Shown here in pieces: positions 1-5,560 of a stretch of DNA of 5,560 bases. The notes under the pieces were generated by a model, which was not told the DNA's origin, did no database searches, and saw only the letters and a list, made by a program, of their open reading frames with translations. The position numbers and the translations under genes are program-made. Within the stretch, counting starts at the first letter, position 1. The number at the start of each line of letters is the position of its first letter. The stretch comes from an uncultured Flavobacterium sp. GTDB taxonomy: Bacteria > Bacteroidota > Bacteroidia > Flavobacteriales > Flavobacteriaceae. Location of the stretch: contig CAMLKV010000176.1 in the NCBI GenBank assembly GCA_946480635.1, forward strand, positions 1 through 5,560, written 5' to 3'.

Positions 1-2
1 CA

Positions 3-188
3 TCTAATTCAGAATTTACTGGAAAACAATACTTATTGAACAATAAAAGCTATGTCATTCTTGGTTTCGGCATAATCAATAATCAGCCGTTATTCTTGAA
101 TATGAGTTTCGAAAAAGAACCAAAATCGAACGAAGATTTCGATGATTTAATGAAAAAATTTATAGTTTACGGGGAAAACAACCGTTAA
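3..188 (+). CDS. 3' end of an unrecognised protein (5' truncated by window)
   Basis: An open frame runs from the window edge to TAA at 186-188 and gives the last 61 residues of a protein. The other two forward frames stop early (TAA at 5-7, TGA at 37-39). The visible part has a hydrophobic, beta-like stretch (YVILGFGIINNQPLFLNMSF) followed by an acidic and then basic C-terminus ending in NNR. I do not recognise the family. The stop codon lies inside the R'' box (CGTTAAC, 183-189) of the attC-like site that follows, the usual arrangement for the last gene of an integron cassette. No function is proposed. Confidence 0.7.
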   Translation, partial: SNSEFTGKQYLLNNKSYVILGFGIINNQPLFLNMSFEKEPKSNEDFDDLMKKFIVYGENNR

Positions 189-243
189 CACTCGCTAAAC
201 TCCATTGCAGCATTCTGGATGCCGCAAGCATTTATCTACCAAT

Positions 244-298
244 ACGCAAAACCTTTTTACTTTTGCGTCAAAATGTAGCAAAAGCAAACGGTTTTGCT
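244..298 (+). repeat. Two consecutive hairpins inside attC-like site 1
   Basis: ACGCAAAA (244-251) pairs perfectly with TTTTGCGT (261-268) across a 9-base loop. AGCAAAA (277-283) pairs perfectly with TTTTGCT (292-298) across an 8-base loop. They resemble the variable terminal structures found at the tip of long attC sites. The first hairpin overlaps the TACTTTTG promoter-like motif, so folding and promoter use would compete on single-stranded DNA. A role as a transcription terminator is less likely because neither hairpin is GC-rich or followed by a clean T tract. Confidence 0.6.
258..265 (+). promoter_or_regulatory. Candidate Bacteroidota -7 element (TACTTTTG) in attC site 1
   Basis: TACTTTTG fits the Bacteroidota consensus TAnnTTTG exactly. 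It lies between the arms of the attC-like site, about 120 bases before the gene at 385, and points into it. No clear -33 TTTG is seen at the right distance. The motif is short in an AT-rich sequence, so taken alone it is weak; support comes from its recurrence in four other sites of the array. Confidence 0.4.
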
Positions 299-384
299 TT
301 ATATTCGTTTTCGCAGAAAATACTCAGCTAACCAAGACGCAACGAGAGTTTAGCGGAGAACGTTAGGTGCAAGCTTAAGAAAAA

Positions 385-1155
385 ATGACAGAAAACAAAT
401 TCATTTACCAATTGATTAAAGCTCGATTTTTCGGGATTAGAAAAGAACTACGATATCTTTTTATCTTGAGCTTTACTTCTATTTTTCTAAGTCAATTATG
501 GTTAGAAAAAGTAGAAGCATTCAATGATTTCCATTATAACATTGGTATTATTTATATAAAACTTTGTTATTCATACTTATCTGCATTCATCTTTTATTAT
601 TTAGTTGTGTATGCTCCGAAAGAACGAAAAAGAGCAAAAGCTTTTAGATTCATCAACAACAAAATTCACAGAATAAATAATTTAATTAAAGGAATTCTAA
701 TTGTGATACTGCAAGAAAGCGGAGGCAAAATTACTGAATTAGAAAATTTAAAATACAAACAAATAAACGACTATTGCTCTAAAATTGATGCTAATAAAAA
801 AGTTCATTTTCATAATTCAAAAATTGTACTACACAATTCATTTACAGAATTTCTTCAATATAAAATATCGCTTTTAAAAACTGAAGTCCAGCAATTAATG
901 CTTTTAAATGATTTGTTAAGCGACGAAATATTTTTAAACTTAAATAACATTAATGATGTCTTATCTGAAATATTTGATGATTATAATATTTTTCCTGACA
1001 AAGATTTTACAAGATATTCTCATTCAATAACAGATTTAAATTTTGAGAGAAAAGAACTCTTTGAAAACTTTAATACAAAATATAGAATAAAATATGATTT
1101 CGAATACCACCGTAACGAAAAGAAAAGAAAAAGAACAGAAAAAGCCTTCACCTAA
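385..1155 (+). CDS. Two-helix membrane protein with long cytosolic helical tail, unknown function
   Basis: This encodes 256 residues and is the only gene of cassette 363-1276. The start ATG is 22 bases after the cassette junction, with an A-rich leader and no Shine-Dalgarno, as usual in Bacteroidota. A basic N-terminus (KARFFGIRKELR) precedes a first membrane helix at about residues 24-40 and a second at about 53-76, followed by a strongly positive stretch (PKERKRAKAF). This predicts an inner-membrane hairpin with both ends in the cytosol. Residues 80-256 are soluble, charged and mostly helical, ending in a Lys/Arg-rich tail (RNEKKRKRTEKAF). No catalytic motif is visible and I do not recognise a named family. 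The TAA stop sits inside the R'' box ACCTAAC of the next attC-like site, so the gene fills its cassette completely. A sensor, scaffold or phage-defence membrane component would fit the shape, but nothing shows it. Confidence 0.85.
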   Translation: MTENKFIYQLIKARFFGIRKELRYLFILSFTSIFLSQLWLEKVEAFNDFHYNIGIIYIKLCYSYLSAFIFYYLVVYAPKERKRAKAFRFINNKIHRINNLIKGILIVILQESGGKITELENLKYKQINDYCSKIDANKKVHFHNSKIVLHNSFTEFLQYKISLLKTEVQQLMLLNDLLSDEIFLNLNNINDVLSEIFDDYNIFPDKDFTRYSHSITDLNFERKELFENFNTKYRIKYDFEYHRNEKKRKRTEKAFT

Positions 1156-1284
1156 CAGCGGTTTGGCACAATAGCTAAATTTATCTTAGCCACGCGCCTA
1201 TTTTCCGCAAGGAAATATTATCTTAGCAAGAAAATAAATCGTTCACGCAGCCGCTACTGCGCCAAGCCGCGGAACGTTAACGGC
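1149..1284 (+). other. attC-like recombination site 2 (end of cassette 1)
   Basis: R'' is CACCTAAC (1149-1156), the exact complement of GTTAGGTG at the start of the same cassette (362-369); its core ACCTAAC fits RYYYAAC. R' is GTTAACG (1276-1282). The arms GCGGTTTGGCACAATAG (1158-1174) and CTACTGCGCCAAGCCGC (1254-1270) pair at 14 of 17 positions, and the right arm carries extra bases (GGAAC) before GTTA. The interior contains a direct repeat TTATCTTAGC (1191-1200 and 1218-1227). Unlike the other sites it has no perfect TAnnTTTG motif; the nearest is TATCTTAG, one base off, occurring twice. Confidence 0.8.
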
Positions 1285-1406
1285 AACCGACGTGACGAGG
1301 CGTGTAAACTGCATGTGATTCAGTTGCTTAGCAAACTAAAAAAAACATTACGAAGATTACTTTTTTAACTGCGGGTAGAAATATCCTTTCCGCATTTAGA
1401 TTTATT

Positions 1407-1616
1407 GCTATTGCGCTGAAATATTTAGCTGTTGCGCTGAGATATATTGCTGTTGCGCCGAGAAATCTCCTAGTTGCGCCGAGACATTTTGCTGTTGCGT
1501 TGAGACATCTTGCTGTTGCGGTGAGATATTTTGCTATTACGCTGAGATATCTTGCTATTGCGCTGAGATATCTTGCTGTTGCGCCGTGACATTTTGCTGT
1601 TATGCTGAGAAATCTC
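1407..1616. repeat. Ten tandem copies of a 21-bp repeat
   Basis: Ten uninterrupted 21-base units start at 1407, 1428, 1449, 1470, 1491, 1512, 1533, 1554, 1575 and 1596. The consensus begins GCTGTTGCGCTGAGATAT and ends in CTT or TTT. A degraded eleventh copy begins at 1617 (CTTATTGCG). Copies differ mostly at a few positions (GCT[AG]TTGCG[CT][TC]GAGA). The period is two helical turns, which would place identical sites on one face of the DNA. It is also a multiple of three, so one forward frame (A-V-A-L-R-Y-L heptads) stays open from 1332 to 1586 and reverse frames are open too, but none has a credible start codon. There are no spacers, so this is not a CRISPR. Function is unknown. Confidence 0.9.
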
Positions 1617-1654
1617 CTTATTGCGAAAAGAAGTATAATAACTCAAGGACGGCA

Positions 1655-1789
1655 GCCGTTAACAGCGGTTTTAAAAAATTGGGGCTTTAGGCAGAATTTA
1701 AATGTAATTTTATACATTTGACTTCAGTCCTAATGGAATGGTTTGGGAACAAAAATCCCCAACTTCTTAAAGCCGGCGGGACGTTAGCA
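1655..1789 (+). other. attC-like recombination site 3 (end of gene-less cassette 2)
   Basis: R'' is GCCGTTAAC (1655-1663) and R' is GTTAGCA (1783-1789). The arms 1664-1684 (starts AGCGGTTTTA, ends TTGGGG) and 1757-1777 (starts CCCCAACTTC, ends AAGCCGGC) pair at 16 of 21 positions. The right arm has the extra bases GGGAC before GTTA. The 34 bases at 1722-1755 are identical to 3109-3142 in site 5. A short open frame at 1718-1918 runs across this site and is an artefact of it. Confidence 0.8.
1713..1720 (+). promoter_or_regulatory. Candidate -7 element (TACATTTG) in attC site 3
   Basis: TACATTTG matches TAnnTTTG exactly and lies between the arms of the attC-like site, 99 bases before the ATG at 1819. 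No clear -33 TTTG is present. Transcription from here would place the right arm of the attC in the 5' untranslated region of the next gene. Confidence 0.45.
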
Positions 1790-1818
1790 GTAATAACCTC
1801 AAACTATACGCATACAGA

Positions 1819-2139
1819 ATGGGACATCTTCCGAAATCATTATTTGAACTTCTTAAACTGGAAAATTTTAGATTTAAGACTGGAATGTATATTGGAGATA
1901 AAAAAATTACCATATTGAGAGCATTTATTGATGGCTATTTATTTGCTTTAGAAGCGAATAATATTAATCTGGCAGAAAAAGAAAAGTTTACAGAATTTCA
2001 TGATTGGGTTGCAAATTATTTTGGATGGTATGAGTCTACTGCAGGTTGGAAAAATATTATTCTAGAAGAATGCAATGGAAATGAAGAAATTGCTGTTGAC
2101 AAATTTTTTGAACTCTATGACAAGTTTATTAAAAGGTAG
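1819..2139 (+). CDS. Small soluble protein with a GMYIG motif, unknown function
   Basis: This encodes 106 residues and is the only gene of cassette 1784-2311. The ATG is 35 bases from the junction and is the only plausible start in frame, although the frame stays open upstream into the attC. The protein begins with an amphipathic helix (LPKSLFELLKL), then KTGMYIGDKK at about residues 20-29, ITILRAFIDGYLFALE, a charged helix (AEKEKFTEFHDWVANYFG), and an acidic/aromatic C-terminal helix (VDKFFELYDKFIKR). The order 'FELL - GMYIG - L.aFidGY - F..W - FF.L...F' looks like a recurring small Bacteroidota protein of unknown role, but this is from memory and I cannot name a family. GMYIG resembles a segment of GyrB-type ATPases, yet nothing else of that fold is present. 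No membrane segment or signal peptide. It could be an immunity or antitoxin-like protein by size; this is a guess. Confidence 0.8.
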   Translation: MGHLPKSLFELLKLENFRFKTGMYIGDKKITILRAFIDGYLFALEANNINLAEKEKFTEFHDWVANYFGWYESTAGWKNIILEECNGNEEIAVDKFFELYDKFIKR

Positions 2140-2150
2140 ATAAAAGTTAC

Positions 2151-2320
2151 TACTTCTAACAGCGGTTTTGTGCAAGTGGGGTTTTGGGGATTTTTTGGAA
2201 TGGTCAGTGAGTGCATTTCTTCTTTAAAAAGAAGTTTTTTCTTAATTACTTTTCGGTATATTTGTAATCGTCAGTAATAAAAATCCCCACCAGCACAAAG
2301 CCGGCGGGACGTTAGCAGTA
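2151..2320 (+). other. attC-like recombination site 4 (end of cassette 3)
   Basis: R'' is TACTTCTAAC (2151-2160), which matches the complement of its cassette start GTTAGCAGTA (1783-1792) at 9 of 10 positions. R' is GTTAGCA (2311-2317). Arms 2161-2181 (starts AGCGGTTTTGTGC, ends GTGGGG) and 2285-2305 (starts CCCCACCAGCAC, ends AAGCCGGC) pair at 16 of 21 positions, with GGGAC extra before GTTA. An inner ATTTTT/AAAAAT pair can extend the stem. The interior also has TCTTTAAAAAGA (2221-2232), a short perfect palindrome. The bases 2301-2323 and 1773-1795 are identical, running past R' into the next cassette. Confidence 0.8.
2257..2264 (+). promoter_or_regulatory. Candidate -7 element (TATATTTG) in attC site 4
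   Basis: TATATTTG matches TAnnTTTG exactly, between the arms of the site and 73 bases before the TTG start at 2337. No clear -33 TTTG is visible. It would serve the membrane-protein gene of the next cassette. Confidence 0.45.
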
Positions 2321-2336
2321 ATAATAAAAAAACACG

Positions 2337-3035
2337 TTGAAAACAGAATTTAAACTTAACTTTCGAAATCAATATAATTCATCAAAAGAATGTTTTAGTA
2401 TTTTATTATGGCTATTGATATTATTGCCAATTATTTCATTTTTTAAGAACGCTAATTTATCAATTGAGCTTTTCATTTTTGCATTTGTTTTTTGGTTTTT
2501 CACTTCTTTTCTAATGATATTACCCTTTCACATTCAATATCTAATTAAAAACTGGAATACTAAATTGATTATTTATGACGCAGAAGAAAAAATAGAAATT
2601 CATAATGGACAAACTGTAGATAGTTTCAAATTTTCTGACATTGCAATTCAAAGACATATTCTAGGTCACTATAAGCCTGGAAGAAAGAAAAGTTGGACTC
2701 CTATTCCTTTTGATTATTATGGTTATATAAATATTAAAACAAATGACGATAGAAATTTCACAATAACTTCTCTAATTGCTAATCCTTTTAAATTTCCGCT
2801 AAAAATAGACTCAACTATTTATAGATTTCCATTCATAAAAACAGAAATTACCAAAAAAGATTTAGAAGTAATAAAAGCTTTAAAAATTGAAGAAACAGAA
2901 CGAAGAATCAATTATTTTATTAAAAACTTCAGTTCAATTTCTAAAGAAGAGTTAGAAATGAAATTAAAAAATGAAGAAATGCTAGATAAAAATGCAAAAA
3001 TTGCTATTGAAAGAATTTTAGAGCGTAAAAAATAA
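2337..3035 (+). CDS. Two-helix membrane protein with beta-rich domain, unknown function
   Basis: This encodes 232 residues and is the only gene of cassette 2312-3170. The start is TTG, 25 bases after the junction and at the usual distance for this array; the first in-frame ATG comes only at residue 60, inside a membrane helix, so the TTG start is preferred. Membrane helices lie at about residues 20-36 and 43-63. Residues 72-170 alternate hydrophobic and polar residues (TKLIIYDAEEKIEIHNG, IAIQRHI, YGYINIKT, NFTITSL), as in a beta-sandwich or PH-like domain next to the membrane. Residues 172-232 form charged helices ending in ERILERKK. The layout of two helices followed by a PH-like domain occurs in uncharacterised bacterial membrane proteins; the PH assignment is inference from pattern only. 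TAA at 3033-3035 is followed after eight bases by the next R'' box. Confidence 0.8.
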   Translation: MKTEFKLNFRNQYNSSKECFSILLWLLILLPIISFFKNANLSIELFIFAFVFWFFTSFLMILPFHIQYLIKNWNTKLIIYDAEEKIEIHNGQTVDSFKFSDIAIQRHILGHYKPGRKKSWTPIPFDYYGYINIKTNDDRNFTITSLIANPFKFPLKIDSTIYRFPFIKTEITKKDLEVIKALKIEETERRINYFIKNFSSISKEELEMKLKNEEMLDKNAKIAIERILERKK

Positions 3036-3043
3036 ATTACTAC

Positions 3044-3176
3044 TGCTAACAGCGGTTTTGTGCAAGTGGGGTTTTGGTGAATAATGGAACGATGTTTTGT
3101 ATATTTGGCTTCAGTCCTAATGGAATGGTTTGGGAACAAAAAACTTCAACTTCTTAAAGCCGGCAGGACATTGTGC
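3044..3176 (+). other. attC-like recombination site 5 (hybrid arms, end of cassette 4)
   Basis: R'' TGCTAAC ends at 3050, and the extended box 3037-3050 matches the complement of its cassette start (2311-2324) at 13 of 14 positions. R' reads ATTGTGC (3170-3176), with A in place of the usual G at the exchange point. The left arm 3046-3077 is identical to site 4 (2156-2187), while the right half 3109-3142 is identical to site 3 (1722-1755). As a result the arms 3051-3071 and 3144-3164 pair at only 11 of 21 positions, against 16 of 21 in sites 3 and 4. It looks like a recombinant of two attC types. Confidence 0.7.
3100..3107 (+). promoter_or_regulatory. Candidate -7 element (TATATTTG) in attC site 5
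   Basis: TATATTTG matches TAnnTTTG exactly, with a TTTG at 3073-3076 lying 23 bases upstream as a possible -33 element (a long spacing). It is 90 bases before the preferred ATG at 3197 of the propeller lipoprotein. Confidence 0.45.
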
Positions 3177-3196
3177 GTCATATTAAGACAAACGAA

Positions 3197-4261
3197 ATGA
3201 ACATAAAAGTGAAAATGATAACTCTAATAGTCATATTGACACTAAACTTTTCTTGCGTTGAAAATAAATCAACAGAAAAAGAAACTAACAAGCCTGAATT
3301 GGTAGTAACTTCAAAAACCGACACCTTAAAATTTACTTCTGCAATACGTGCTATCTTTCAGGATAGTAATGGCAATTATTGGTTTGGAAGTCATAATGAA
3401 GGTATAAGTTTTTATAACGGTAAATCATTTGAATACTTTACAACTAATGAAGGTTTATCCGACAATCAAATCCGTTCAATTCAAGAAGACAAGTATGGAA
3501 AAATTTGGTTTGGAACTGCAAAAGGAATAAGCTTATATGACAAAGGAAAGTTTACTAATTATCCATCTAAAAATAACAACCCAATATTTGATTGGAATGA
3601 AACCAATGGATATTTATGGTTCTATTCGTGGGAAGAAGACGGGATAAATCGTTTTGACGGAATAAATATGAATTATTTGATTTTCCCAAAACCCCAAAAT
3701 AAAAATTATAATAATTCTTATGGTGTTACGGGTATCTCAAAAGATAAAAACGGTAAAGTTTGGATTGCGACTTATGCAGCACTATTCAGTTATGATAACA
3801 AAATGGTAAACATCTTTGATGCTGAAAAATTAAACCTAAAGGATAATGAGCAACTGCATATAAGAAGTGTATTAGCAGATTCAAAAGGACGAATTTGGAT
3901 AGGAAATAATGGAATTGGCGTTTTACTTATGGAAGGCAATTCAACAATTAATTTTTCTGAAAAGAATAATTTAATCCACCCTACAAGCACAAGAAGAGGA
4001 GATAATAAATCACAACCAGGTACACTTGAACATCCTTTTGCTATTGAAGAAGATTCGGACGGCAATATTTGGTTTGGAGATGTATATACAGGAGCTTGGA
4101 AATATGACGGTAAAACGTTTACAAACTATTCAGTTAGCGACAATCAATCTAAACCAATGATTTGGACCATTTATAAAGACAATAATGACAATTTGCTTTT
4201 TGGAATGGCAGATGGAAGTATATATAAGTTTAACGGAAAGACTTTTGAAAAGCAATTTTAA
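3197..4261 (+). CDS. Lipoprotein with a seven-bladed Reg_prop beta-propeller
   Basis: This encodes 354 residues from ATG 3197; a longer frame from GTG at 3173 would start inside the R' box and spoil the signal peptide. Residues 1-20 (MNIKVKMITLIVILTLNFSC) form a lipoprotein signal with the lipidated Cys at 20, followed by a polar, Lys/Glu-rich linker. Seven repeats follow, each with the Reg_prop pattern 'i..D..G.iWfGt..Gi..ydG..f..y': the [IVLY]W[FI][GA]-type strands lie at about residues 61, 103, 140, 188, 233, 291 and 333 (the last is LLFG). Seven blades close a complete propeller. Reg_prop blades are best known from the sensor part of Bacteroidota hybrid two-component systems, where two propellers bind polysaccharide fragments; here a single propeller stands alone with no membrane helix, Y_Y_Y domain, kinase or regulator. 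A membrane-anchored ligand-binding or protein-interaction role is likely; the ligand is unknown. Sole gene of cassette 3171-4400. Confidence 0.88.
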   Translation: MNIKVKMITLIVILTLNFSCVENKSTEKETNKPELVVTSKTDTLKFTSAIRAIFQDSNGNYWFGSHNEGISFYNGKSFEYFTTNEGLSDNQIRSIQEDKYGKIWFGTAKGISLYDKGKFTNYPSKNNNPIFDWNETNGYLWFYSWEEDGINRFDGINMNYLIFPKPQNKNYNNSYGVTGISKDKNGKVWIATYAALFSYDNKMVNIFDAEKLNLKDNEQLHIRSVLADSKGRIWIGNNGIGVLLMEGNSTINFSEKNNLIHPTSTRRGDNKSQPGTLEHPFAIEEDSDGNIWFGDVYTGAWKYDGKTFTNYSVSDNQSKPMIWTIYKDNNDNLLFGMADGSIYKFNGKTFEKQF

Positions 4262-4271
4262 GAAATACGAA

Positions 4272-4406
4272 CACACAACAGCGGTGTAATGAAAGTGGGA
4301 CTTTAAAGCTTAATTTAATGTTGGTTTTGTATTTGTAAACTTTATCTTAAATTTATACTTTTGGGTAAACTAATCCCAAACTTCGCAAATCTACGGGACG
4401 TTATGT
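4272..4406 (+). other. attC-like recombination site 6 (end of cassette 5)
   Basis: R'' is CACACAAC (4272-4279), whose complement GTTGTGTG matches the cassette start TTGTGCG (3171-3177) except for one base. R' is GTTATGT (4400-4406), one base off GTTRRRY. The left arm from AGCGGTGTAATG (4280) to TGGGA (4300) pairs imperfectly with TCCCAAACTTCGC onward (4374-4396), with CGGGAC before GTTA shared with sites 3 and 4. The left and right arms are more diverged from the other sites. Its R' predicts that the attC closing the next cassette should begin with an R'' close to GGCACATAAC. Confidence 0.7.
4332..4363 (+). promoter_or_regulatory. Candidate promoter (TTTG-N20-TACTTTTG) in attC site 6
   Basis: The -7 candidate TACTTTTG (4356-4363) fits TAnnTTTG exactly, and a TTTG at 4332-4335 lies 20 bases upstream, a good spacing for the Bacteroidota -33 element. 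This is the best formed promoter in the window. It is 71 bases before the ATG at 4434 and would drive the three-gene run that follows. Confidence 0.55.
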
Positions 4407-4433
4407 GCCTACTTAAAAAAATCATCTAAAAAT

Positions 4434-4832
4434 ATGATAACCAAAAAATCTAAATTAGAATCTTTTCTCCCTAAAAAAATTGACACTTTATCAAAAAATG
4501 ATATTGAAGAAATTGCTTTTAAGATTATTGCGAGTTTAGATTTCAAGTCTAAAAAACAAATGCAAATTTTAAACTCAATTCCTTTCAACACGAATACTTT
4601 TCGTAGGGATTTAAAAGATAAATTTGAAAGTTTGGAAAGATTCGAAAATGAAAAACAACATTTAAGAAATGAGCTCTTTGTTGTTGACCAAGAAATAATT
4701 TCAAAAAACTATAATAGCAAATTCAGATTCAAACATTTTCTATCAGATAAACAGATCGATGTTACTTCAAATCGACAACTTAAAGAGTTAATCCGAGAAT
4801 ATAAAAAACTGAAAAATCAAGCCAGCTCATAA
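4434..4832 (+). CDS. Charged, mostly helical small protein, unknown function
   Basis: This encodes 132 residues. The ATG is 33 bases after the cassette junction at 4400/4401, consistent with the other cassettes. The protein has no signal peptide or membrane helix and is rich in Lys, Glu, Asp, Phe and Ile. Predicted helices include KNDIEEIAFKIIASL (about 21-35), FRRDLKDKFESLERFENEKQ (about 56-75), which could form a short coiled coil, and RQLKELIREYKKLKNQ (about 114-129). The shape is that of a soluble cytosolic accessory protein; I do not recognise it. The TAA stop at 4830-4832 lies in GCTCATAAC (4825-4833), which resembles an R'' box matching this cassette's start, but no attC stem follows. 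The next gene starts 14 bases downstream, so the two are probably co-transcribed. Confidence 0.75.
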   Translation: MITKKSKLESFLPKKIDTLSKNDIEEIAFKIIASLDFKSKKQMQILNSIPFNTNTFRRDLKDKFESLERFENEKQHLRNELFVVDQEIISKNYNSKFRFKHFLSDKQIDVTSNRQLKELIREYKKLKNQASS

Positions 4833-4833
4833 C
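4825..4833 (+). other. Possible orphan R'' box (GCTCATAAC) without attC stem
   Basis: The complement of GCTCATAAC is GTTATGAGC, matching this cassette's start GTTATGTGC (4400-4408) at 8 of 9 positions. It contains the stop codon of the gene at 4434, just as in sites 1 and 2. No arm sequence (AGCGG-type) or R' box follows, and the next gene starts at 4847. It may be the remnant of a deleted attC or a chance match. Confidence 0.3.
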
Positions 4834-4846
4834 ACCTTCTAAAATT

Positions 4847-5434
4847 ATGTACAATAAATTCACAGATGACGAACTTATCGAAGCATACACCACAATGATG
4901 GATTATTCAGGTAAAGCTGATGAAAGCATTTTAAAGGAAATCGATCATCGCGGTGGATTAGAAAGATTTCTTAAAGAAATAGAACAAAAAAATATAAATA
5001 AAGCTGAATCAGACAGAGTATTAAATGAATTAATTAAGCTTAATAAAGAAGGTTTTAGTCTTGACGAAATTAAATCAAATATTTCATCCGAACTTTGGAC
5101 AAAACAGCATTTAAACGCATTCATAGAAAATAGATATATCAAGCATCAATTGTTTCTTAATGACAAATCAATTGATAAAGAATTGATTTTGAAGAGTATC
5201 CTAGGAATAGCAATTGCTAGTTTTGCAGGAACTGGTTTAATTTTACTAATCGTAATCGTATTTAAATTTGCTCATTTTGGGCTTTTAGTACCAGTTTATT
5301 TTTTATCCTATATGGTAATTAAGGGTTTCACTGGAAAAACACATAATAACGGAATAGTTTTTATTGCTTGCTTAATAGCAACCATTATTTCTGGAATTTC
5401 ATTCTTCTATATTATGAATCGATTAGCTGGTTAA
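4847..5434 (+). CDS. Protein with soluble helical N-terminus and three C-terminal membrane helices
   Basis: This encodes 195 residues. Residues 1-110 are soluble and helical, starting YNKFTDDELIEAYTTMMDYSG, with an RGGLERFL segment at about 35-42 and a charged helix around 45-68. Hydrophobic helices lie at about 115-138 (ILGIAIASFAGTGLILLIVI), 142-158 and 168-189, with a short basic loop (KGFTGKTHNN) between the last two. The N-terminal half is predicted cytosolic. I have an impression of similar uncharacterised flavobacterial proteins but cannot name a family. It sits 14 bases after one gene and five bases before an acetyltransferase start, which suggests an operon. No catalytic motif is visible. 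Confidence 0.8.
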   Translation: MYNKFTDDELIEAYTTMMDYSGKADESILKEIDHRGGLERFLKEIEQKNINKAESDRVLNELIKLNKEGFSLDEIKSNISSELWTKQHLNAFIENRYIKHQLFLNDKSIDKELILKSILGIAIASFAGTGLILLIVIVFKFAHFGLLVPVYFLSYMVIKGFTGKTHNNGIVFIACLIATIISGISFFYIMNRLAG

Positions 5435-5439
5435 AAAGT

Positions 5440-5560
5440 ATGAAAGACATAACAATATACAAAGACCAATTTTCCATCTCAACAGACAAGTCAAGATTAG
5501 ATATAGATTCTATTCATGAGTTTTTATCAACCAAAGCCTATTGGTGTTTAAACATTCCTA
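5440..5560 (+). CDS. GNAT-family N-acetyltransferase, N-terminal part (cut by window end)
   Basis: The ATG at 5440 begins five bases after the previous stop; the first 40 residues are visible and the frame runs off the window. The segment pattern 'ITIYKDQFSISTDKSRLDID' then 'IHEFLSTKAYW...NIP' matches the start of the common bacterial GNAT family in which a helix ending in L(S)..SYW..gip precedes the acetyl-CoA fold. The CoA-binding motif (Q/RxxGxG/A) would lie beyond the window, so the activity cannot be confirmed and the substrate is unknown. Acetyltransferases are frequent cassette cargo, but with no attC before it here it could equally belong to the chromosome beyond the array. Confidence 0.65.
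   Translation, partial: MKDITIYKDQFSISTDKSRLDIDSIHEFLSTKAYWCLNIP

Follow-up and report, generated by a model that had tools for sequence, protein, structure and literature searches.

What moves a cassette array when no integrase gene is in sight? The question is raised by 5,560 nucleotides from an uncultured Flavobacterium sp. (contig CAMLKV010000176.1, positions 1 to 5,560 of the forward strand; this whole stretch is the window), in which successive gene cassettes are separated by attC-like sites. A preliminary description read it as an integron-type array of a Bacteroidota-like genome with no integrase nearby, and proposed a search for an integrase with the patch specific to the integron integrase IntI. 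Very probably the window covers a portion of an array whose cassettes belong to an integron-type system, one that is widespread in Bacteroidota and is run by a relative of IntI from which that patch is absent. Compared across genomes, the sequences display cassette ends that pair with each other, a covarying hairpin arm, exchange borders at GTT, an attI, linkage of the arrays to a recombinase gene, and co-occurrence of the sites with this patchless recombinase. The window appears to belong to the same system as its relatives, as judged from its cassette 5 and from sites that match a model (R1) built from 51 aligned sites.

Cassettes with paired ends

Integron theory predicts that a cassette begins with the final bases of its own attC, and this is the layout found in the window. 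There are five clear R1 sites in 5.56 kb, of a type that differs from classical attC, and two of them (sites 3 and 5) lie outside the set from which R1 was built. The features are as follows, with open reading frames (ORFs) and the complementary ends of each cassette.

182 to 369, + strand: attC-like site 0, a divergent subtype read by eye, with R'' CCGTTAAC (182-189), arms 193-202 and 346-355, and R' GTTAGGTG (362-369); the R1 match is weak and shifted (240-372, E 0.033)
363 to 1276, + strand: cassette 1; ORF 385-1155, 256 amino acids (aa); ends GTTAGGTG (362-369) and CACCTAAC (1149-1156), complementary at 8/8
1146 to 1286, + strand: attC-like site 1; R1 98.1 bits, E 3e-19; among the 51 sites behind R1
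1277 to 1783, + strand: cassette 2; ends GTTAACGGC (1276-1284) and GCCGTTAAC (1655-1663), 9/9
1653 to 1793, + strand: attC-like site 2; R1 110 bits; among the sites behind R1
1784 to 2311, + strand: cassette 3; ORF 1819-2139, 106 aa, no Pfam family; ends GTTAGCAGTA (1783-1792) and TACTTCTAAC (2151-2160), 9/10
2150 to 2321, + strand: attC-like site 3; R1 56.9 bits, E 5.7e-11 at 2156-2321; outside the R1 building set
2312 to 3170, + strand: cassette 4; ORF 2337-3035, 232 aa, no Pfam family; ends 2311-2324 and 3037-3050, 13/14
3040 to 3180, + strand: attC-like site 4, with the core ATT, not GTT; R1 90.3 bits; among the sites behind R1
3171 to 4400, + strand: cassette 5; ORF 3173-4261 (ATG at 3197) with Reg_prop repeats (PF07494, E 2.5e-29); ends TTGTGCG (3171-3177) and CACACAA (4272-4278), 6/7
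4269 to 4410, + strand: attC-like site 5; R1 49.7 bits, E 1.6e-9; outside the R1 building set
4401 to 5560, + strand: start of cassette 6 or array end; ORFs 4434-4832 and 4847-5434, and a third from about 5440 to the window end

The pairs of cassettes 1 to 5 are those named in the preliminary description, and all five are present where it placed them. Over the 7 bases past GTT, own ends match at 30/35 positions in the window alone, a value equalled by 2/120 permutations including the true order; cassettes 3 and 4 have one common start, which bears on this count. A larger set, obtained with a tolerant pattern from the window and the stretches found in a genome scan, spans 66 sequences and comprises 361 sites and 231 cassettes, with cassettes over 3.5 kb left out. 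In this set, own-end matches past GTT run for at least 7 bases in 140/231 cassettes and at least 6 in 170/231, as against 4/231 and 6/231 for the two halves of the same site. By position from 1 to 7, own ends match at frequencies of 0.90, 0.84, 0.81, 0.85, 0.88, 0.82, and 0.72; shuffling over all cassettes gives 0.68, 0.34, 0.35, 0.26, 0.67, 0.36, and 0.38, and shuffling inside each array gives 0.72, 0.49, 0.45, 0.43, 0.75, 0.49, and 0.49. The own value is higher at all seven positions than the maximum of 1000 within-array shuffles (54 to 80%), the two halves of one site match at 29 to 69% per position, and the mutual information between cassette start and far end peaks on the diagonal. A feature that the preliminary description does not mention is an almost invariable mismatch at the 8th position, where the start has A and the far end is preceded by C. 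A second cassette set, smaller and partly overlapping the first, has at least 6/7 matches in 16/23 cassettes (shuffled mean 1.7, maximum 5).

A covarying hairpin with unusual R boxes

The consensus hairpin of the 51 sites shows compensatory changes in six of nine L-arm pairs (one pair in 28/51 sequences), and a T.G pair in the L arm is constant in 47/51. At the outer end of the site, C stands against A in 180/192 distinct sites, and the spacer is unequal. Folding with DNA parameters was predicted for 150 of these 192 sites, from cassettes preselected for end pairing: when a site is assembled from the two ends of its own cassette, the R box is predicted to form at least 7 pairs in 150/150 on either strand, and in sites as they stand in the array it is predicted to pair in 29/150. 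The bottom strand is predicted to be the more stable in 129/150 sites, by a mean of 2.7 kcal/mol, and one of two window sites printed from this folding is more stable as the top strand. The classical attC core has the consensus GTTRRRY in R' and RYYYAAC in R'', and these are found in 6/231 R' and 7/231 R'' boxes.

Arrays headed by a recombinase with its own attI

That no integrase lies nearby holds for the 5.56-kb window taken alone and fails in its relatives, in which a recombinase gene adjoins the arrays. In a first set of 19 loci, 138/142 sites lie downstream of the gene and on its strand; the remaining four are divergent and come from one subclade (L144, L145, L146, and L148), and where more sequence was fetched for divergent loci the arrays continue away from the gene. 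In a second set, whose 20 loci were for the most part the top recombinase matches in a genome profile search, 78/78 sites are downstream and co-oriented, in 19/20 loci, within an unequal search space of 130 kb downstream and 75 kb upstream. These two sets and one plasmid yield 40 recombinases, and for 39 of them the stretch fetched around the gene also contains one site or more.

An attI-like motif close to TATAAACNAGTT follows the recombinase gene by 46 to 159 bases in 31/40 loci, in a search that demanded TATA or TATT upstream of AGTT. The first-cassette start after this attI has a partner (at most one mismatch, within 4.4 kb) in 27/31 loci; 200 shuffles gave 4.6 on average and never more than 10. 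Two divergent arrays of one Flavobacterium genome (L313 and L314) agree at 995/1000 bases before GTT and at 3/3 in GTT, and beyond it at 8/20 of the next bases and then 27/100; more than 1000 bases before GTT, ungapped identity falls to 463/900. Either start has its own partner downstream, and the two loci therefore have one attI and different first cassettes.

Sites and recombinase also occur together across genomes. Among 296 genomes from the phylum of Flavobacterium, searched with R1 at E 1e-4 with at most 10 candidates scored per genome and strict filters, at least one site is present in 124. A profile of the patchless recombinase (threshold E 1e-70) matches 94 genomes, not each checked for the insertion. 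Both are found in 74 genomes, sites alone in 50, the recombinase alone in 20, and neither in 152 (odds ratio 11.2; Fisher p 1.1e-18, ignoring shared ancestry), and a site is present in 33/35 genomes with the strongest recombinase matches.

A wider genome scan used a two-sided site pattern and favours this site subtype because the pattern was taken from the window. By record title, 113 of the at least 120 stretches found are from Bacteroidota (Flavobacterium, Chryseobacterium, Pedobacter, Algoriphagus, Chitinophagaceae, and others), and together with the paired ends and exchange borders this site family bears out an integron-type array from a Bacteroidota-like source. The rest, among the matches listed, are two from Ignavibacteriales, one from the Chlorobi group, three from one metagenome-assembled genome (MAG) labelled Proteobacteria, and one labelled Chloroflexi. 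The arrays or sites in MAG contigs with these last two labels (L031, L053, L056, and L080) may reflect either misbinning or transfer. A Chryseobacterium plasmid (NZ_CP041688.1, L296) carries a patchless recombinase gene with five sites downstream on the gene's strand, so the system can sit on a plasmid; its cassettes include genes for a group II intron reverse transcriptase and an IS110 transposase.

The array enzyme of relatives lacks the IntI-specific patch

The IntI model, TIGR02249, has a cut-off of 265 bits, and no protein exceeds it in any of the 19 array-holding genomes first searched. The best match in 17/19 is a tyrosine recombinase of 355 to 468 aa (14 genomes) or 593 to 627 aa (3 genomes), which the model matches in two pieces, skipping its middle. 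The spacing between the KGxKDR and LRH motifs is 67 to 72 residues in 40/40 recombinases of relatives, 109 in 22/22 IntI, and 71 to 76 in 14/14 Xer proteins. The IntI-specific insertion (I2, or patch) is thus absent from all 40 of the recombinases and present in 22/22 IntI, and a C-terminal SP(L/F)D motif is common to IntI and most of the patchless enzymes shown. Seven array-linked enzymes scanned against NCBIfam score 183 to 222 bits with the IntI model, below its cut-off, and 192 to 229 bits with the XerA model (NF040815; cut-off 220, one above), which is the best NCBIfam model for five of the seven, the shorter ones. Several relatives go by the name 'site-specific tyrosine recombinase/integron integrase' at NCBI, and kinship to the integron integrase is therefore half visible in the annotation.

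The preliminary description had expected an IntI of the known kind. This is not supported, because the patch is absent from the array-side enzyme, the R boxes depart from the classical consensus, and R1 finds no site in the 309 kb that surround 20 of 84 true IntI genes (the TIGR02249 cut-off is exceeded in 84/296 genomes from the phylum of Flavobacterium). A classical integron array, or a cluster of attC sites lacking integron integrases (CALIN), mobilised by a true IntI that is either local or acts in trans, with the patchless recombinase as an unrelated neighbour, would account for a layout and cassette logic like those of an integron, and 24 of the 84 genomes with a true IntI do have a site somewhere. 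Sites are nevertheless negatively associated with IntI (both 24, sites alone 100, IntI alone 60, neither 112; odds ratio 0.45), R1 finds nothing in two resistance-integron plasmid loci, and the arrays are headed by a patchless gene with its own attI; together with the lack of IntI in the 19 array genomes, these results make this explanation unlikely. True IntI in 84/296 genomes (including L249 to L268) exceeds the small number of integrons from Bacteroidetes described for IntegronFinder 2.0, among them a complete one in Salinibacter (PMC9024848).

The array enzyme is separate from XerC and XerD

A second possibility is that XerC and XerD move the cassettes, as in integrative elements that exploit Xer through dif-like half sites. 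The array enzyme does match XerA and XerD profiles and structures well: its best solved-structure matches, by sequence and by fold, are of the XerA/XerD type, and a predicted full-length model (mean predicted local distance difference test score [pLDDT] 81.5; predicted template modelling score [pTM] 0.53) has XerA and the integron integrase 2a3v as best matches. XerC- and XerD-like genes moreover occur in the genomes from which a recombinase tree was made; its 79 rows include 14 Xer and 22 IntI and no archaeal XerA, and L312 gave no row. The 14 Xer rows are split from the 65 others with support 100/100, however, with the patchless enzymes on the IntI side, and the seven variable bases of the R boxes differ among cassettes, unlike the fixed arm of dif. 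We regard Xer-driven movement as very improbable. The best NCBIfam model is XerC or XerD in 11/11 of the Xer rows checked; the labels of the other three (L303, L308, and L309) were not checked against NCBIfam.

The 22 IntI rows form one clade (100/100) that is placed among the patchless enzymes with weak support, and a constraint keeping the patchless enzymes together is not rejected (p-AU 0.26). Three patchless recombinases lie near IntI in the tree (L310, L311, and L295), two from phylum-sample genomes and one on a Sinorhizobium plasmid beside an IS91-family gene; L295 has no R1 site.

The array enzyme also has an N-terminal domain of ~75 aa, whose residues W46, D50, and R55 are the same in all 13 rows compared, and the recombinases of 593 to 627 aa (open frame; L131, L132, and L134), which head arrays too, apparently have three related copies of it, as read by eye. 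A likeness to the HARP domain was spotted in the sequence ahead of searches. SMARCAL1 HARP (4o66) is the first match of the domain both in a Foldseek search of the PDB library (weak, E 0.53) and in a profile search of solved structures (weak, E 0.52); it is absent from the rows shown of a second aligner, VIA-align, and Pfam finds no HARP in N-terminal pieces, with a weak DUF5710 match below cut-off in 5/9. These weak sequence and model matches are suggestive of a possible kinship with HARP.

Cassettes exchanged at GTT

Three cassette pairs from different species, of 1436, 590, and 887 bp, are 99.1 to 99.9% identical and have unlike flanks. In two of the three, the alignment ends at most 3 bases from GTT on both sides, and in the third the left side extends 32 bases into a similar site end; in the printed junctions, read by eye, identity ends at GTT and no target duplications are present. 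The claim that cassettes insert at G^TT is borne out by these borders and by own-end pairing in the 231-cassette set.

The comparison of indel borders recommended in the preliminary description was made for cassette 5 of the window, with a consistent outcome. Homologs in two other Flavobacteriaceae genomes (G550 and G350; 78% and 73% identity) both align over 3171 to 4283 and have unlike flanks, and a more distant one (G429) matches inside the cassette alone, ending at 4277. R1 finds no site directly beside either full copy; one copy (in L289) is directly followed by a much shorter putative attC-like site read by eye, ~56 bases from AAC to GTT. Because this site is missed by R1, the model probably undercounts short sites.

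Complementary ends of ~10 bp on each unit would also be expected if the units were small transposons with terminal inverted repeats of their own, arranged in tandem by chance or preference. The single common hairpin site per junction, the one orientation along the array, the fixed attI at its head, and identity that stops at GTT without target duplications make this highly improbable. That ordinary intergenic repeats recombine homologously, with end pairing as a by-product, accords with the 73 to 91% identity of the window sites to Flavobacterium enshiense sites but is hardly credible, since homologous exchange leaves unexplained both the cassette-specific pairing (runs of at least 6 in 170/231 own ends versus 6/231 within a site) and the borders at one trinucleotide in three cross-species pairs.

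Observations that weigh against the system as described

Several observations count against an integron-type system run by a patchless enzyme. Own-end matches run for no more than 2 bases in 51/231 cassettes, although many of these are long intervals that may hide a missed site. Two within-genome cassette pairs, 88% and 74% alike (L004/L143, L022, and L058), have the preceding site in common, and their left border is not GTT. Two of the first 19 array genomes are without such an enzyme (G018 has only Xer-like matches and G015 none), 50/124 site genomes are without the recombinase at E 1e-70, nine of them with at least 5 sites, and 20/94 recombinase genomes are without a site. The downstream attI motif is absent from 9/40 loci, of which four, divergent ones, have a candidate attI upstream instead, and the search space of the second locus set was unequal. 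The window's own integrase is unseen, the role of the patchless enzyme as catalyst of the exchange is suggested by comparison of sequences, and recombination of single strands is suggested by predicted hairpins, a prediction being no proof.

A proposed mechanism of cassette capture

In the mechanism that we propose, each cassette ends, on its 3' side, with most of an attC-like site and begins, on its 5' side, with the site's final bases (TTNNNNNNNA), so that its two ends are complementary. In a free circle the halves would meet and fold, as single-stranded DNA, into a hairpin. From its base upwards this would have an R box of 10 bp, a short unpaired stretch of unequal length on the two sides, the covarying L arm, and a loop that varies. 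The patchless IntI-related tyrosine recombinase would then insert the cassette either at another attC or at the conserved attI that adjoins the recombinase gene, crossing over within GTT or right beside it. The substrate would be a folded single strand, probably the bottom one, and the weakly HARP-like N-terminal domain may help to read the branched DNA. Insertion may be favoured over excision, because R boxes are predicted to pair seldom in sites as they stand in the array.

Cassette contents and the ends of the array

The 256-aa product of cassette 1 has no Pfam family, and its 15 homologs all go without a name beyond 'hypothetical protein'. Cassette 2 has no forward ORF of at least 50 aa wholly inside 1277 to 1783; it contains a repeat with a 21-nucleotide period at 1350 to 1643 (~294 bases, some 14 units), in which a reverse frame (1470 to 1646) codes for a 7-residue repeat. 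R1 finds no further site between 4401 and 5560, where at least three ORFs follow the last site, and this segment is either a long last cassette or the array end. Beyond the window, the first cassette upstream is predicted to start with GTTAACGG, and an R'' like GGCACATAAC is predicted downstream. In a relative (L131 from 7041, seen in L123), the recombinase gene is followed by an ORF that resembles a reverse transcriptase by eye, with a YRDD motif.

Relation to integrons and implications

Like integrons, the system has tandem, co-oriented cassettes with an attC-like hairpin at their 3' ends, starts complementary to their own R'', an attI beside the recombinase gene, GTT borders, and cassettes that occur in more than one species. 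Unlike in integrons, the array-linked recombinase has no IntI-specific insertion, falls under the IntI cut-off, and has an extra N-terminal domain; the pairing of the R boxes extends over 10 bp, 7 bases of which vary, and GTTRRRY is rare among them; and the gene points into the array in most loci examined (it is divergent in one subclade). The L-arm T.G, the outer C and A, and the unequal spacer are at most candidate counterparts of the extrahelical bases and the unpaired spacer that set strand choice in integrons. The window resembles a CALIN in having sites and no integrase, but CALINs consist of classical attC sites of IntI systems (two or more attC spaced by less than 4 kb, and no IntI in the element), whereas nearly all of the relatives examined (39/40) have a recombinase gene and a site in the same stretch. 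XerC and XerD differ in their separate place in the tree, and it is the array enzyme that sits beside cassette arrays. The HARP domain of SMARCAL1 is the first match for the N-terminal domain, but both matches are weak (E about 0.5).

The patchless enzymes may belong to the integron-like subgroup of simple tyrosine recombinases (YRs) (PMC8138268); the 'Simple YRs' section of that paper links no patchless member to cassette arrays, unlike the system here. The insertion is there considered essential for integron function, yet not fully conserved in the integron-like subgroup (Smyshlyaev 2021; PMC8138268). I2 is elsewhere presented as an innovation for single-strand recombination (Escudero 2016, PMC4792948; Escudero 2020, PMC7790495), one that turned a double-strand into a single-strand recombinase and is described as necessary for cassette capture (PMC7790495). 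The IntI-specific domain is among the defining characters of integrons and is demanded by IntegronFinder (Ghaly 2022; PMC9668308). The system described here has the logic and anatomy of an integron and fails this defining test of the family. This suggests that searches requiring the IntI-specific domain would miss the enzyme of a system with sites in 124/296 genomes.

We tentatively propose that the I2 helix is dispensable for cassette integrons and perhaps was so for their origin. A patchless relative of IntI, widespread in Bacteroidota, would capture folded single-stranded cassettes, perhaps reading branched DNA by means of its HARP-like domain, and either IntI integrons are a derived branch that gained I2 later or two systems solved the same problem with different domains. 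The origin of I2 has been put as a chicken-and-egg paradox, which asks how selection could favour I2 in the absence of attC, and attC ahead of I2 (PMC4792948), and a relative without I2 at the head of attC-like cassette arrays makes this question testable.

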